From: Halorubrum sp. 2020YC2
GTDB taxonomy: Archaea; Halobacteriota; Halobacteria; Halobacteriales; Haloferacaceae
Direction of reading: 5' to 3'
Assembly (NCBI RefSeq): GCF_018623055.1
Contig: NZ_CP076019.1
Coordinates: 1,550,001 to 1,614,000, forward strand
Length of the DNA: 64,000 nt
Positions 3,573-51,186 of this stretch are shown here, piece after piece. The position numbers and the translations under genes were made by a program. Every line of letters starts with the position of its first letter. Within the stretch, counting starts at the first letter, position 1. Below the pieces are notes generated by a model, which did no database searches, was not told the DNA's origin, and saw nothing but the letters and a program-made list of their open reading frames with translations.

Positions 3573-4885
3573 CTATCCGCAGGTCCTAGGTACCCCCACG
3601 CCTGTAGACGGTCTCCATCGCCGCTGATCCAACGTTCACCGATGTCATCGCGGTAGTACATATTCGGCATCACGATATCATCAATCCGGTCGTACGCTTG
3701 CTCACGCGCTGCCTGCATCGTCTCACCTTTCCCGGTCACAACGATGGGCATCCCATTGCCGCCGGCAACACGCCACTGGCCGTCAACCTTCTTTGCGTCT
3801 TCAAGATGAATCCCTTCGCGGCTCTCCGCCTCGAAGACCACTGCGGCGTTTCGAGAGTTCTCATCGTATGTCTTGTCGTCGTCGAACGGGAACGGTGGGA
3901 GGACAACCCGAATGGCGATCTGGTAACCATTGTGAACCTCTACGTTCGGGTCGTTTCCGTGTGCGAGGTCGTAGAAGAACTCGCCGGTAGACGACTCGAT
4001 TGACTCTTCTTGTAGCGCAATCGTCGGGTACCCGAACCGGGGTGTGAACTCTAGCGGATAGATCCCGCTTTCGTTGACGATACAGTTGATGTCAATGCTT
4101 CCAACGTACCCTTCGTTGGCGAGCCAGCCTTCGAGTTTGCCAAACGTCTCCTCGAACAGTTTGTTCTGCCCCGCCCAGAACATCGACGTTCCCATCTCAC
4201 CAGTCTGTGGACCGATGTTCCAGGGAATAATTTCTTATGCTCAAAATTGAAATTGACTTGGTCAATAAACGTCTCACCGTTGAAGAATCCGCAGATGGCG
4301 ACTTCGACGCCTTGGACTTTCCGTTGGAGTTGGAAGCCCTTCATTCGGTGACCCCACGCCTTCTTGTAAGCACGGAGTACGTCTATAACGTCACTCCCGT
4401 CATCCTCATTCCCGACATAGAGTAATCGTTTGACGTTCTGAACTTCGCCGAGTGGCTTGATGACGTATGGAGCCGGATTCTCTTTGACATGGTTGATGCC
4501 CTCGTCGAAGTCGTGGAAGATGTGGTGCTCAACGGTGTTGACGTCGTGCTCTTCGAGGACCTCCATCGCATAGCCACGATCTTCTTCAAGATGATCGGTT
4601 CGGGGTCCCACCAACGACAGCCTTCCCTTGCTCGCGGAGTTCCTGAGCGAGCTTGCCCGTCCCGATGTCCGGGCCCACCCAGATGTCGTCGAAAATGATG
4701 ACGTCGGCCCAGTCGACCTCCGCCCGCCAATCATCAGTCTTGGGCACGAAGCCATCACCGATTTCCTGATCTCCTTCCGATTCGATGTAGTATTTCACAT
4801 CGTGACCCTCGCGGTGGACTTGCCACGCGAGGTCAGTGATCAGTGCGGCATCGGCGGAAACGAAGAGGAAGTGTTTGGATTCCAT
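3569..4885 (-). pseudogene. Frameshifted foreign copy of a PurD-like ATP-grasp ligase
   Basis: Three overlapping reading frames together encode about 439 residues, the usual length for phosphoribosylamine-glycine ligase-like (PurD-like) ATP-grasp proteins. The N-terminal part (FLFVSADAALITDLAWQV) shifts frame near base 4597, where two bases seem lost after GGTPN. It shifts again near 4223, where one base seems lost after LFPG. The C-terminal part reads cleanly to the stop. It is clearly homologous to, but diverged from and more A+T-rich than, the truncated neighbour upstream, so it came from another lineage. A TATA box lies just ahead of its ATG. The exact substrate of this PurD-like branch is uncertain. 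Confidence 0.8.
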
Positions 4886-4894
4886 TGTTGTGGT

Positions 4895-5614
4895 TTAAGC
4901 AGCGGTGACAGCAGTTTGTCTCTCGGTACACTGCGGTGAGTTATATAATAGATCCCGGAAATAGTGCTCGAAGTTGAAGTTCACCCGGTCGACGAACTCG
5001 TTCCCGTCGAAGAAGCCGCAGACGGCGACCTCGACGCCCTCGACCTTCCGCTGGAGCTGGAACCCCTTCATCCGGTGGCCCCACGCCTTCTCGTACGCCT
5101 TCAGCACGTCGGCCACGTCGCTGCCGTCGTCCTCGTTGCCGACGTACAGCAGGCGCTTGACGTTCTGGACCTCCCCGAGCGGCTTGATCACGTACGACGC
5201 CGGGTTCTCCCGAACGTGTTGGATCCCCGCGTCGAACGCGTGGAAGACGTGGTGTTCGACGGTGTCGACGCCGTGGTCTTCGAGGACCTCCATCGCGTAG
5301 CCGCGGTCCTCCTCGAGACGGTCGGTGTTCGGCGTCCCCCCGACGACCGCGTGTCCCTCCTCTCGGAGTTCCTGCGCGAGTTTGCCGGTCCCCACGTCGG
5401 AACCGACCCAGACGTCGTCGAAGATTATCACGTCGGCCCAGTCGACCTCGGCGCGCCAGTCGTCCGTCTTCGGGACGAACCCGTCGCCTATCTCCCGGTC
5501 GCTCTCGGCCTCGACGTAGTACTTCACGGCGTGGCCCTCGCGGCGGACCTGCCACGCCAGGTCCGTGATCAGCGCCGCGTCGGCCGAGACGAAGAGGAAG
5601 TTCGCGGTGTCCAT
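4895..5614 (-). pseudogene. Native PurD-like ATP-grasp gene truncated at residue 217
   Basis: The G+C-rich, host-like copy: residues 1-217 match the N-terminal half of the neighbouring 439-residue copy (FLFVSADAALITDLAWQV, VIKPLGEVQNVKRLLYVGN, FQLQRKVEGVEVAVCGFF). After NFNFEH the match stops. A 22-residue unrelated tail follows, read out of the promoter region of the foreign copy. The C-terminal ATP-grasp half, including the carboxylate ligase site, is missing, so the product is very probably inactive. The break marks the right border of the integrated island. The lost 3' half might lie at the other end of the element, outside the window. Confidence 0.8.
4941..4950 (-). promoter_or_regulatory. 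TATA box of foreign ATP-grasp copy
   Basis: TATTATATAA on the minus strand, about 56 bp before the ATG of the foreign copy. It lies inside the tail of the truncated native gene, which shows that the incoming DNA brought its own promoter. Predicted from spacing and base composition only. Confidence 0.45.
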
Positions 5615-14649: not shown

Positions 14650-15708
14650 ATGACCGTCGGTATCACCGGAATCGGGACGTACGTCCCGGACGAGATCATC
14701 ACGGGCGAGGCCATCGCGGCCGAGAGCGGTATCCCCGAGGAGGTGGTCGTCGAGAAGATGGGCGTCCGCGAGAAGCACGTCTGCCCGCCCGACGGCGACC
14801 ACGCGACCGACATGTCCGTGACGGCGGCCGAGGCCGCGCTCGCGGACGCGGACGTGGACCCGACCGACCTCGACGCCGTCGTCTACCACGGATCCGAGTA
14901 CAAGGACCACGTCGTCTGGTCGGCGGCGGCCGCGATCACCGACCGCTTGGGCGCGACGAACGCCTACGCGACCGAGAGTTACACGCTCTGTGCGGGCGCG
15001 CCGATCGCGTTGCGACAGATGACCGCGCAGCTAGAGACCGAGCCGATCGACACCGCGCTGCTCGTCGCCGCCAGCCGCGAGGAGGACCTCGTCGACTACG
15101 GCAACGAGGACAGCTCGTTCATGTTCAACTTCGGCAGCGGCGCGAGCGCGTTCGTCGTCGAGGCGGCGGACGACGAGGCGTCGGACAACGGGGTCGAAAG
15201 CGATCCCTTCGACGGCCGAGCGCGGGCGACCGTCCTCGCCAGCGCGGCCGAGACCGACGGCTCGTTCGCCGACGACGTGGTGATGCCCGCGGGCGGGTCG
15301 AAGCGCCCGGCGAGCGGGGAGACGGTCCGCGAGGGGCTCCACACACTCGACGTGCCCGACCCCGAGGGAATGAAGGAACGCTTGGGGCCGGTGTCGCTGC
15401 CAGCGTACCTCTCCGTCGCCGACACCGCCTTGGAGCGGTCCGGGTTCGACCGCGACGACCTCGACTTCGTCGCGCTCACGCACATGAAGCGGTCGTTCCA
15501 CGAGCGCGTCCTCGACGAGCTCGGCCTCGACCCCGCGGGCGACGGCTACTACCTCGACGAGTACGGCCACGTCCAGAGCGTCGACCAGGCGCTCGCGGTG
15601 GAGCGCGGCGCCGAGACGGGTCGGCTCAAACCGGGCGACCTCGTCTGTCTGCTCGCGGCCGGGACCGGCTACACCTGGTCCGCGACCGTGCTCCGGTGGC
15701 GAGGCTAA
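14650..15708 (+). CDS. KAS III / HMG-CoA-synthase-like condensing enzyme
   Basis: 352 residues of the thiolase superfamily. Seen: the nucleophile C114 in ESYTLCAGAPIAL, a His in ALTHMKRSFHE, a second His in DEYGHVQS, and a C-terminal glycine loop LLAAGTGYTW. Such enzymes (3-oxoacyl-ACP synthase III or HMG-CoA synthase-like) join an acyl-thioester to a second acyl unit. The second His-x-x-Asn region is not the classical FabH form, so the reaction is uncertain. It follows the Liv operon by about 140 bp in the same direction and may belong to the same pathway (inference). Confidence 0.8.
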   Translation: MTVGITGIGTYVPDEIITGEAIAAESGIPEEVVVEKMGVREKHVCPPDGDHATDMSVTAAEAALADADVDPTDLDAVVYHGSEYKDHVVWSAAAAITDRLGATNAYATESYTLCAGAPIALRQMTAQLETEPIDTALLVAASREEDLVDYGNEDSSFMFNFGSGASAFVVEAADDEASDNGVESDPFDGRARATVLASAAETDGSFADDVVMPAGGSKRPASGETVREGLHTLDVPDPEGMKERLGPVSLPAYLSVADTALERSGFDRDDLDFVALTHMKRSFHERVLDELGLDPAGDGYYLDEYGHVQSVDQALAVERGAETGRLKPGDLVCLLAAGTGYTWSATVLRWRG

Positions 15709-15710
15709 CC

Positions 15711-15824
15711 GCTTATAAATAGTTGACTGTGGGTCGGTGGCGGATACCTCCGAAACCTCGACCGCTCGCTTATAAATGGCTGAGAGCGGATCGGCGACGA
15801 ACACCTCCAAAGCCCCAGTCGCGA
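15711..15824 (+). repeat. Two tandem 57-bp TATA-bearing head units of copy A
   Basis: Two consecutive units each begin GCTTATAAAT and run through a GATCGG-CG-GAACACCTCC-AAGCC-like stretch. The period is exactly 57 bp, the same as in copy B. The first unit has drifted, while the second leads directly into stem I. Each carries a TATA-like box, so the head could be a duplicated promoter (inference). Confidence 0.65.
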
Positions 15825-16150
15825 GGACTCGCGCGGCTCGTTGCGCGCCTCACTCGGTCGCTCCGCTCCCTCGTTCCGGTGTCGGCGGCGGCGGCGCCGC
15901 CGGCTTTCCGTGGCGCGTAGCGCCACGCTACTTACGTCGCCGTGCTTCGCCCTCGCGACTGCCCCTTTGAGTCCCGCCCCGCACAGCACCGAAGCCTCAC
16001 GCCTCCCCAGCCTCGTCGGCCGGTCTCCGCTTCGCTCCGACCGGCCGACTCCAGCGAGAATCGAAGATTCTCTGGCAGCCGGCGGCTTCGCCGCCGGCGA
16101 CCTCGCGCGTGCGACTCGCGCCCTGTGGGCGCTCGTCGGCACGCGCCACC
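15711..16150 (+). repeat. Dispersed covarying stem-loop element, copy A (candidate structured RNA)
   Basis: Fills the gap between two convergent genes. Layout: two 57-bp head units with TTATAAAT, stem I arms at 15816-15826 (CAGTCGCGAGG) and 15951-15961, the C-rich core GCCCCTTTGAGTCCC with CCTCCCCAGCCTCGTC, stem II at 16015-16023/16041-16049, and stem III GCGCGTGC/GCACGCGC at 16105-16112/16139-16146. It also holds copy-specific hairpins such as GAGAATCGAAGATTCTC and GCCGGCGGCTTCGCCGCCGGC. The arms differ from those of the other four copies but stay complementary, which favours a selected structure. No reading frame is shared by the copies. The element ends 57 bp before the MaoC gene's stop. 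Confidence 0.8.
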
Positions 16151-27617: not shown

Positions 27618-28051
27618 GTTTATAAATCGGATTGTGGTGTTGCCGTCGGCTACTTATCCGTGAACGACGGCGCGGTGACGATCTCGAAAGGGTCAGCCGT
27701 TCGCTTATAAACGGCTACCAACAGATCGGTGGAGAACACCGCTGAAGTTCCAGCCATCCACTTATAAATGAGTGTCAGTAGATCGACCGCGAACACCGCC
27801 AAAGCCCCAGCCGGGAGGGCGCCGTACGCTCGCTGTGCTCCTCGCTCAGTCACTTCGTTCCTTCGCTGCGGTGCTTACGTCGCCTACGGCGCCCTCCCGG
27901 CTGCCCCTTTGAGTCACACCCCGCCCCGCACGGCACCGCGCCTCACACCTCCCCAGCCTCGTCGGTGGTCCTCCGCTTCGCTCCGGACCACCGACTCCCT
28001 CGCGCGTGCGGTGCGCGCCGCGATGCGGCGCTCACCGGCACGCGCCACCGC
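27618..28051 (+). repeat. Dispersed covarying stem-loop element, copy B (candidate structured RNA)
   Basis: Three TATA-bearing heads begin at 27618, 27703 and 27760, the last two spaced 57 bp. Stem I is a perfect 19-bp pair, CAGCCGGGAGGGCGCCGTA (27808-27826) with its complement at 27885-27903; both arms differ from the other copies, with compensating changes. The core is GCCCCTTTGAGTCACACCCC, stem II is GTCGGTGGTCC/GGACCACCGAC (27961-27971/27985-27995), and stem III is GCGCGTGC/GCACGCGC. Copy B ends directly at the stop codon of the site-2 protease gene, which it faces head-on. It is the only copy whose 5' flank is a gene start rather than a gene end. Confidence 0.8.
27703..27816 (+). repeat. 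Two tandem 57-bp TATA-bearing head units of copy B
   Basis: Units beginning GCTTATAAAC and ACTTATAAAT share the stretch GATCG-(G/A)-GAACACCGC-(T/C)-AAG-CCAGCC at the same offsets. The exact 57-bp period is identical to that of copy A. A further drifted TTTATAAAT lies 85 bp upstream. Confidence 0.65.
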
Positions 28052-36078: not shown

Positions 36079-36184
36079 GAAGTAGCTGCTCTCGGAGTAG
36101 TTGGTTCCGTTGCCGTTCCAGTCATTCTTTTGTGAAACGTCGAGGCACTCGTAGTGATATCCTTCTTCAAGCTCCCGACCGTTC

Positions 36185-36531
36185 TCTTATAAATGTCTGC
36201 TGCTGGATCAGCAGAGAACACCTCCAAAGCCCCAGCCGCGAGGCGGGCGCACGCTCGCTGCGCTCCTCGGTCGCTCACTTCGTTCGCTCCCTGCGGTGCT
36301 TACATCGCCTGCGCCCACCTCGCGACTGCCCCTTTGAGTCCCACCCCACCCCGCACAGCAACCGCACCTCACACCTCCCCAACCTCGTCAGTCGCCCTCC
36401 GCGTTGCTCCGGGCGACTGACTCCAGCGAGGGACCGAAGGTCCCTCTGGCAGCCGGCGGCTTCGCCGCCGGCGACCTCGCGCGTGCTCCTCGCGGCCGCC
36501 TTCGGCGGCCCCTCGGAGGCACGCGCCACCG
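36185..36531 (+). repeat. Dispersed covarying stem-loop element, copy C (candidate structured RNA)
   Basis: The shortest copy. One head with TCTTATAAAT at 36185, stem I CAGCCGCGAGGCGGGCGCA (36233-36251) against 36310-36328 (17 of 19 paired), the core GCCCCTTTGAGTCCCACCCC, stem II GTCAGTCGCCC/GGGCGACTGAC (36387-36397/36411-36421), and copy-specific hairpins GAGGGACCGAAGGTCCCTC and GGCCGCCTTCGGCGGCC. It sits between convergent genes and ends 51 bp before the stop of the facing membrane-protein gene. The 36079-36184 lead-in shows nothing else. Confidence 0.8.
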
Positions 36532-43603: not shown

Positions 43604-44003
43604 GGCGGTGGCGTCGCCGGCGGCTCTGCCGCCGGCTGCAAGAGGCGCGTCGCGCCTCCCTGCGTGCCGACGAGCGCCCATCGGGCGCGAGTCGCACGCG
43701 CGAGGGAGTCAGTCGGCCGGAGCGTAGCGGAGGCCGACTGACGAGGCTGGGGAGGTGTGAGGTGCCGTGCGGAGCGGTGCGGGGTGGGACTCAAAGGGGC
43801 GGCTGTGAGGCGGGCGCAGGCGACGTAAGCACCGCAGGGAGCGAACGAAGTGAGCGACCGAGGAGCGTGGTTCGAGACGCCAAAGGCGTCTCGCCATCAC
43901 GAAAGGCGCAAAGCGCCTTTCGAACGACAGCGAGCGTGCGCCCGCCTCACAGCCGGGGATTTAGAGTGAGCCGCCGCCGATCCGCCCCCGACCATTTATA
44001 AGC
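43604..44003 (-). repeat. Dispersed covarying stem-loop element, copy D, reversed (candidate structured RNA)
   Basis: Read on the minus strand: head GCTTATAAAT at 44003-43994, stem I perfect over 19 bp (CGGCTGTGAGGCGGGCGCA at 43800-43818 against 43937-43955; note the TGTGAGG change matched on both arms), copy-specific hairpins GAGACGCCTTTGGCGTCTC and GAAAGGCGCTTTGCGCCTTTC in the stem I loop, the C-rich core GCCCCTTTGAGTCCCACCCC, and stem II GTCAGTCGGCC/GGCCGACTGAC. The head has lost the AACACC block seen elsewhere. It lies between convergent genes and ends 45 bp from the stop of the facing aminopeptidase gene. Confidence 0.8.
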
Positions 44004-44046
44004 GATCGACGGGAGATACGGTGGATCGCAACACCCGATCGACGAC

Positions 44047-44959: not shown

Positions 44960-45037
44960 CCCCGCGCGGCGCGGCCACAGTCTTCCCCCGCGCGGCGCGG
45001 CCACAGTCTTCCCCCGCACGGCGCGGCCGCAGCCCTC
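44960..45037. repeat. Three 26-bp direct repeats in a divergent promoter region
   Basis: Three head-to-tail 26-bp units (44960, 44986, 45012), each built as CCCCGCGCGGCGCGGCC followed by (A/G)CAG and a pyrimidine tail. The first two are identical and the third has three changes. They lie about 30 bp upstream of the beta-propeller start codon and before the divergent membrane-protein gene. Each unit holds the palindrome CCGCGCGG-like core, so they could be tandem protein-binding sites or a slippage array (inference). Confidence 0.75.
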
Positions 45038-45120
45038 CCCAGCGCGGTCGCGACCTCCCGGACCCCGGCGCGGCCGCGCGTTCCGACGACCCGAGAACGC
45101 CCGCGCGTTCCGACGGCCAT

Positions 45121-50637: not shown

Positions 50638-50659
50638 GTCGGCGAAGTTCCAGCCGCTC

Positions 50660-51186
50660 GTTTATAAATAACCAACTGCTGCTCGGCGGCGAACACCGCC
50701 GAAGCCCCGGTCGCGAGGCGGGCGCACGCTCGCTGTCGCCCGAAAATCTCCGATTTTCGGGATGACGAGAGTGCTTCGCTCTCTCGAACCACGCTCCTCA
50801 CTCAGTCGCTCGCGCTGCTCGCTCCTTCGTTGCGGTCCTTACGTCGTCATCAGAACGCTTCGCGTTCTGATTGGCTCACGAGAGCTCCGCTCTCGTGAAC
50901 GCCTGCGCCCGCCTCGCGACTGCCCCTTCGAGTCCCGCCCGGCACAGCACCGCAGCCTCACACCTCCCCAGCCTCGTCGCTCGCTGCTCGCGGTTCCACC
51001 GCTCGCAATCGAGGTGCTCGCTTCGCTCGCACCTCGCACCGCTCGCACCTCGCACCGCTCGCACCTCGCACCGCTCGCGACTCCCTCGCGCGTGCGACTC
51101 GCAGCCTACGGCTGCTCGTCGGCACGCAGGGAGGCGCGACGCGCCTCTTGTAGCCGGCGGCAAGGCCGCCGGCGACGCCACCGCAG
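50660..51186 (+). repeat. Dispersed covarying stem-loop element, copy E, expanded (candidate structured RNA)
   Basis: The longest copy. Head GTTTATAAAT at 50660, stem I CGGTCGCGAGGCGGGCGCA (50708-50726) against 50904-50922 (18 pairs plus one G-T). The loop is swollen by four extra palindromes: CCGAAAATCTCCGATTTTCGG, GAGAGTGCTTCGCTCTC, CAGAACGCTTCGCGTTCTG and CACGAGAGCTCCGCTCTCGTG. The core is GCCCCTTCGAGTCCCGCCC, one base changed. Stem II is replaced by an expanded region with 16-bp repeats but still closes with GTCGC/GCGAC. It ends 23 bp before the stop of the facing thiolase gene. Confidence 0.8.
51029..51076 (+). repeat. Three perfect 16-bp direct repeats inside copy E
   Basis: The unit GCACCTCGCACCGCTC occurs three times without change, inside what is stem II of the other copies. 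The array shows recent slippage expansion at a hairpin position and explains part of the extra length of copy E. Confidence 0.85.

Follow-up and report, generated by a model that had tools for sequence, protein, structure and literature searches.

The question raised by this locus is whether the short perfect palindromes found in a repeated intergenic element of Halorubrum arise separately in every copy or belong to a common stock from which all copies are furnished. Five copies (A to E, Table 1) lie in the window, i.e., the whole stretch of 64,000 nucleotides that was analysed, and the original prediction had described their loops as holding unrelated hairpins, specific to each copy, at equivalent positions, as if generated or inserted at hairpin tips, on a skeleton that stays. 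All hairpins named there were located in the window, including the one shared by A and C, and the proposed 16-bp slippage array in copy E was confirmed with 3.4 perfect copies.

Table 1. Positions of the five copies in the window and of their cassettes, domains and hairpins.
Feature	Position	Strand	Remarks
Copy A	15702..16150	+	gamma-type two-hairpin cassette within domain I
A cassette delta	16052..16100	+	
A hairpin	16056..16072		GAGAATC-GAA-GATTCTC
Hairpin common to A and C	16078..16098 and 36452..36472		
Copy B	27694..28046	+	no cassette; minimal skeleton
Copy C	36176..36530	+	
C cassette delta	36424..36474	+	between domains II and III
C hairpin	36428..36446		GAGGGACC-GAA-GGTCCCTC
Copy D	43605..44010	-	
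D cassette delta	43614..43662	-	orthologue without it, exact junction
D cassette alpha	43868..43927	-	two hairpins including the predicted D hairpin; orthologue without it
D hairpin	43874..43892	-	GAGACGCC-TTT-GGCGTCTC
Copy E	50641..51182	+	between presumed thiL (ends 50637) and presumed thiolase gene (minus strand, ends 51210), names assumed from reading of the sequence
E domain I	50711..50919	+	paired outer stems; encloses cassettes alpha and beta
E cassette alpha	50736..50791	+	two hairpins; missing in the H. xinjiangense orthologue
E cassette beta	50847..50901	+	the two predicted E hairpins; missing in the orthologue
E hairpin 1	50851..50869		CAGAACGC-TTC-GCGTTCTG
E hairpin 2	50877..50897		CACGAGAGC-TCC-GCTCTCGTG
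E core	50920..50936	+	conserved, CTGCCCCTTCGAGTCCC
E domain II	50977..51084	+	enlarged; contains the 16-bp tandem array (51024..51078)
E domain III hairpin	51096..51121	+	
E cassette delta	51127..51175	+	two hairpins at GCACG^CGCCACC; orthologue without cassette, no target duplication

All five copies are members of one intergenic family of multi-hairpin elements that numbers about 150 in this genome (G000), where the core CTGCCCCTTTGAGTCCC was matched 155 times with at most three mismatches and the same pattern read backwards eight times; the contig holding the window comprises 3,063,515 bases. With at most two mismatches, core matches were obtained in all 34 other Halorubrum genomes searched, with 2 to 181 per genome as against no more than 3 for the control, while among 24 genomes searched outside the genus only three stood out by their counts (G041, 59; G052, 14; G036, 12). 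Halorubrum xinjiangense CGMCC 1.3527 (G028) displayed 157 core matches and served for comparison, and 148 copies of the own genome and 113 of H. xinjiangense were analysed, altogether 261 copies in two species, with about seven of the 155 and at least 44 of the 157 core matches lying outside this set. A downstream anchor was present in 253 of the 261, and a few of the eight without it may be chance matches. The copies are spread over both strands (133 plus, 128 minus). Convergent genes flank 55 of the 137 copies whose gene context was resolved by a simple codon-composition rule used without a genome-wide control (124 of 261 not being resolved by it), and a role strictly between converging genes was rejected on this count. 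No Rfam family matched within the window at gathering score and no phage matched the element query; three plasmid records, two of Halobaculum and one of Halorubrum, matched partially (29–46% of the query). In the literature found, including the available parts of PMC5018182, PMC3119063, PMC12306157 and PMC3733652, no description of this family was recognised.

Read from 5′ to 3′, the element of about 350–550 nt shows a TATA-like motif in a first unit some 57 nt long, then the long helix of domain I, followed after a conserved linker by domains II and III, and lastly a conserved end (GCACGCGCCACC). The motif TTATAWA occurs in 157 of 250 copies and in none of the reversed controls, and the 57-nt unit is often found in tandem, in runs of up to seven under a loose pattern; these tandem units across the genome raise the possibility that a promoter has itself been multiplied. 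In the stems, 94–97% of paired positions are Watson–Crick, as against 64–82% when partners are reshuffled and 21–33% after a slide by one base, with one length class each counted for domain II (68) and domain III (79) and with 70 of 249 copies, those of an imperfect module class, omitted for the second stem. Copy B, which is without cassettes, folds well as RNA (27750–28046, z = -6.0), and copy E as DNA (z = -6.6).

Strong covariation, good folding and the TATA-like box would all suit an ordinary structured-RNA gene family, in which compensatory drift under folding selection shaped the stems with neither exchange nor template switching. A preponderance of A.C over G.T pairs in the core stems (108 versus 32; 60 versus 30 distinct types) also hints at a selected RNA, located on the minus strand. 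The TATA-like box, however, suggests the plus strand, opposite to the wobble bias, and 37 of the A.C cells fall on one pair position in a tally with domain II arms one base short. If a plus-strand RNA were true, its transcript would start 20–30 nt past TTATAAAT. Given this discordance, and the evidence on modules and loops presented below, a plain RNA family is regarded as unlikely.

With regard to the hairpins themselves, the observation exceeds chance, since among perfect hairpins with stems of at least 8 bp a 3-nt loop was found in 349 of 416 near the core and in 81 of 441 more than 1 kb away, and since copy E folds as stated. They are neither unrelated nor copy-specific: with any 3-nt loop, the stems of the window recur in 14 to 40 of the 261 copies of the two species (E hairpin 1, 36; E hairpin 2, 33; D, 19; C, 28; A, 14; hairpin common to A and C, 40; windows of eight copies overlap another copy), and the exact hairpins in 10, 17, 4, 20, 14 and 14 copies, respectively, with that of copy A found in the own genome only. 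The search for the hairpins elsewhere in the genome thus spoke against copy-specificity, and copy-unique palindromes were rejected as a candidate. The recurring hairpins are organised in cassettes, each with one to four of them, which occupy fixed helix junctions. Cassettes alpha and beta reside inside domain I. Delta is found upstream of the core, between domains II and III or ahead of the 3′ end, and its inverted form, gamma, within domain I as well as at other places. A pattern rule assigned one or more cassettes to 63 of the 148 own copies and to 37 of the 113 copies of H. xinjiangense. In the stretches examined, signatures of alpha and beta occur only within 600 nt of the core, and those of delta also elsewhere.

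The expected equivalence of positions accordingly holds for A versus C and for D versus a further hairpin of E, but not across the set, the E pair belonging to beta, the D hairpin to alpha and the A and C hairpins to delta. Similarly, placement at hairpin tips suits alpha, beta and gamma, all three of which lie within domain I; it does not suit delta, whose sites are helix bases and genes. That every copy grows its own palindromes at such tips would fit the position of the former three cassettes and the slippage array in E; it is largely refuted by the recurrence of the hairpins in different copies and in both species, within cassettes whose linkers are constant, as well as by the sites of delta, and we consider it hardly credible. 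Of the notion that palindromes are generated or inserted, independent generation is not supported in view of the shared repertoire and the constant linkers. In one respect something resembling generation on the spot is seen, namely loops that reverse and arms that are kept matched, as would result from template switching.

Delta was also detected within protein genes. At position 232671 of the own genome a gene contains a 45-bp delta that keeps its reading frame and has unchanged ends (CAG...CGA), and H. xinjiangense is without it and without a target duplication. In a comparison with a readable stretch in 16 of 21 loci, the same coding site has two hairpins in the own genome, three in G006 and G002 each and four in G007; G016, G017, G004, G005, G015, G003, G012 and G008 have no hairpins there, and G009, G019, G014 and G001 display longer stretches without such hairpins by eye. 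Delta-like stretches in open frames were also seen at 247337 and 2759442. A further delta at about 2447988 (G000:C1:2447600–2448900) is separated by about 250 nt from the core of copy 2447739 and adjoins a stretch that resembles a tRNA end by eye.

Comparison of orthologous sites revealed how the elements change in place. The flanks of 90 of the 148 own copies were located in stretches of H. xinjiangense; 83 of these copies have a partner, 70 of them a one-to-one partner by both flanks, which are 90.0% identical by length. Both flanks on one such stretch were found for 71 own copies, all with a partner except 2704903, where no core match is present, in a set biased against empty sites as the stretches outside contig C5 were picked for holding copies; the matching required the same strand, and orientation is not independent evidence. 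In the contiguous comparison of C5, all six own copies in or beside syntenic blocks have a partner. Two copies of H. xinjiangense (154513 and 65147) correspond to places without a core match in the own genome.

The contents of these shared sites are nearly as unlike as those of shuffled pairs, and so the earlier statement that the skeleton stays and the hairpins come and go is borne out at the 70 sites. Likeness between orthologues amounted to 66.0% in domain I (70–300 nt; shuffled 64.4%, highest of 20 shuffles 67.2), 61.5% in domain II (59.1%, 61.3) and 70.5% in domain III (66.7%, 68.8), the latter two measured with both anchors, in 63, 57 and 50 of the 70 pairs, respectively; the outer arm of domain I retains a weak vertical signal (81.0% versus 76.1% shuffled). 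After cassettes had been stripped by pattern (n = 63, 53 and 45 pairs for domains I, II and III), at least one near-identical module was kept in 12 of the 70 pairs, and all three in one of 39 pairs with all measured. In pair 38717 domains II and III are identical and domain I is different, in pair 445247 domains I and II are identical and domain III is different, a block replacement that argues against drift within an RNA family. The E site is occupied in all eight readable species (the own and seven others; 11 of 80 loci were read, four of them without a readable gap), with domain I missing in one species and the TATA-like motif in one, and the hairpins of E were found at this site in none of the seven others. 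Identical hairpins in orthologous copies, as expected without turnover, were found neither there nor generally at the 70 sites. In D, E and F the partner is without the delta cassette at the exact junction, with no duplication. It is well supported that the sites of the element are inherited and stable and the contents are not, hence turnover, and whole elements look sedentary. Elements that entered the same intergenic hot spots independently and more than once, in which case ‘orthologous’ copies would never have been one copy, would equally produce near-random contents at shared sites; such a history is very improbable in view of the pairs that retain identical modules and the E site filled in all readable species.

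The copies are mosaics. In H. xinjiangense, outer stem, domain II and domain III are unassociated (238 to 317 of 500 shuffles reach the value), and in the own genome some association was found between second stem and domain II (16 of 500 shuffles), domains II and III (9) and outer and second stem (7). For paired arms of the same stem, the coupling seen in each species was reached by none of 500 shuffles. Modules thus reassort almost freely and stem arms stay matched. Between the two species 25 domain II sequences are identical, and identical modules at non-orthologous sites in both species are a further point against an RNA family that evolves without exchange. The simplest cause of the mosaic is exchange between copies. 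Gene conversion in haloarchaea is very efficient, with long tracts in Haloferax according to the available parts of PMC8223754, and such long tracts are a poor fit to short module swaps.

The loops of the hairpins are equally peculiar. Of the 349 triloops near cores 343 are closed by C-G (36 of 81 away from cores), and read in element direction they comprise 98 GNA, 123 TNC and 128 others; GNA or TNC was found in nine of the 81 distant ones. Because inversion of whole cassettes contributes to this mixture, evidence for reversal of single loops rests on constant contexts and on the coding site. Beta hairpin 1 in constant context (n = 32) shows GAA 12, TTC 9, GGA 3, TCC 2 and others 6 times; TTC and GAA being unlike at all three bases, reversal explains them better than stepwise change, which again tells against drift in an RNA family. 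At the coding site, the first loop reads TAC in G000 and GTA in G002, and another reads TTC in G006 and GAA in G007. Both orientations of some loop were found in 10 of 16 cassette contexts and a single orientation in six. In 21 of 22 cases delta hairpin 1 (stem GGACC) kept GAA when read along its cassette. The loops of the core domains form a contrast: domain II loops (n = 105) are TTC in 79 and GAA in none, with a short loop-adjacent stem, and domain III with GGCCGCC (n = 75) carries GAG 15, GGG 13, GGT 12 and GAT 7 times, none of these reversed, besides TTC 13 and GAA 1, TCC 4 and GGA 3. Domain I is wholly inverted in three of 250 copies, forward in 242 and without assignment in five.

GNA triloops of DNA closed by G-C pairs are described as extraordinarily stable mini-hairpins in the accessible text of PMC4686876, and with tips that are mostly C-GNA-G or its complement C-TNC-G, one of the two strands would form such a structure. 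This leads to a tentative reading of a genome-wide shuffling of the DNA hairpins themselves, in which the roughly 150 fixed elements swap both stem modules and cassettes, the cassettes are shaped as single-stranded DNA and flip often, and delta moves alone into genes and adds in-frame peptides; we hold it for possible, if rather doubtful.

Taken together, the elements share a hairpin repertoire, gain and lose cassettes exactly, reassort their modules, keep covarying arms, present both loop orientations and contribute in-frame delta arrays. We consider it fairly probable that this is a genus-wide archaeal interspersed mosaic element which turns over by inter-copy recombination, template switching and insertion of a mobile hairpin module. 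The conserved linkers would serve for ectopic recombination or gene conversion that hands modules from copy to copy; arms might be kept identical, and loops reversed, when the template is switched at a perfect hairpin; and delta may also insert by itself. These steps are drawn from a comparison with one genome per species and 90% identical flanks in the closest pair, in which no single event was caught. Insertions are probably limited to helix junctions by selection for a strand, RNA or single-stranded DNA, that can fold, and our best guess for the cellular role is a structured transcript or an intergenic DNA landmark.

In yeast genes, inverted repeats have their arms homogenised and their short spacers inverted by template switching (TCC to GGA and TTC to GAA among others), with 10 spacer inversions solely at arms longer than 9 bp (PMC8604942, available parts), whereas many arms of the Halorubrum element measure 7–10 bp. 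In the portions available of PMC8794818 template switching is proposed to create and maintain RNA hairpins in rRNA and microRNA, with 69 loop inversions in rRNA trees. The cassettes resemble these cases by reversed spacers with constant arms and flanks, in the 10 of 16 contexts and the coding site, and differ in that both orientations are common within one repeat family, as opposed to the counted inversions in those texts.

Among palindromic repeats, BIMEs and REPs share with the element more than 100 mosaic palindromic copies in intergenic DNA, a context only roughly assessed here (PMC2817692 and PMC3116915, as far as their accessible text goes), and in REP families stems vary and end tags persist (PMC3733652, accessible part). 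The Halorubrum element differs by its length, its three covarying domains and its fixed sites with changing contents; a GTAG/CGTC end tag as in REPs was not noticed by eye, and the link of REPs and REPINs to a RAYT/Y1 transposase was not found, PF01797 being absent in five genomes with 63–104 core matches. From Haloquadratum, PATEs with near-terminal palindromes and no duplications are known (PMC3119063, in excerpts), which are likewise haloarchaeal, palindromic, free of target duplication (delta in D, E, F and the gene) and without visible coding capacity; judged by these excerpts, they are distinct from the Halorubrum element, in which whole elements look sedentary, the movable part is a small cassette and Y1 does not seem to be needed. 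Non-autonomous elements of this IS200/IS605 type, moved as single strands by a hairpin-reading Y1 transposase, would account for insertions without target duplication and for the entry of delta into genes, and three Y1 transposase matches exist in the own genome. The five genomes without a PF01797 match (G002, G004, G005, G016 and G019, some of them draft assemblies), the partners of 70 of the 71 copies with both flanks, in stretches mostly chosen for copies, and the flanks of delta sites, which show no clear common motif by eye, make this explanation improbable. As copy number does not track PF01797, Y1 transposase was rejected as the driver.

MITEs differ by the duplication lacking at delta junctions and by terminal inverted repeats, which were not noticed by eye for the whole element. 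Rickettsia palindromic elements comprise a palindromic unit that occurs both in intergenic DNA and, in frame, within genes for proteins. Delta is comparable, by description, in being in frame in a protein gene (G000 232671, with arrays in G006, G002 and G007), and differs as an array of two to four small hairpins nested in a larger element.

Template switching, the route proposed for the origin and upkeep of long perfect stems, has been documented mainly through rare events. With more than 100 fixed loci per genome, paired arms, reversible loops and fast turnover, Halorubrum could serve to measure arm copying, loop reversal and module exchange. The genus also provides an archaeal example of a large mosaic palindromic element, and one of a hairpin module by which a protein gains in-frame peptides.

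Three neighbouring features were observed besides. In H. xinjiangense a gene with hairpins near its ends (G028:C5, about 99650–101000, loci L095 and L096), which we take by eye to be a stand-alone TnpB-type gene (IS1341-like), adjoins the orthologue of copy C. In the window a 26-bp tandem repeat with 3.5 copies and 89% matches lies outside the element at 44960–45052, and at 4238–5614 two adjacent stretches of about 300 nt are repeated at a spacing of 727–729 bp with 76–78% identity, which looks like a tandem gene duplication.
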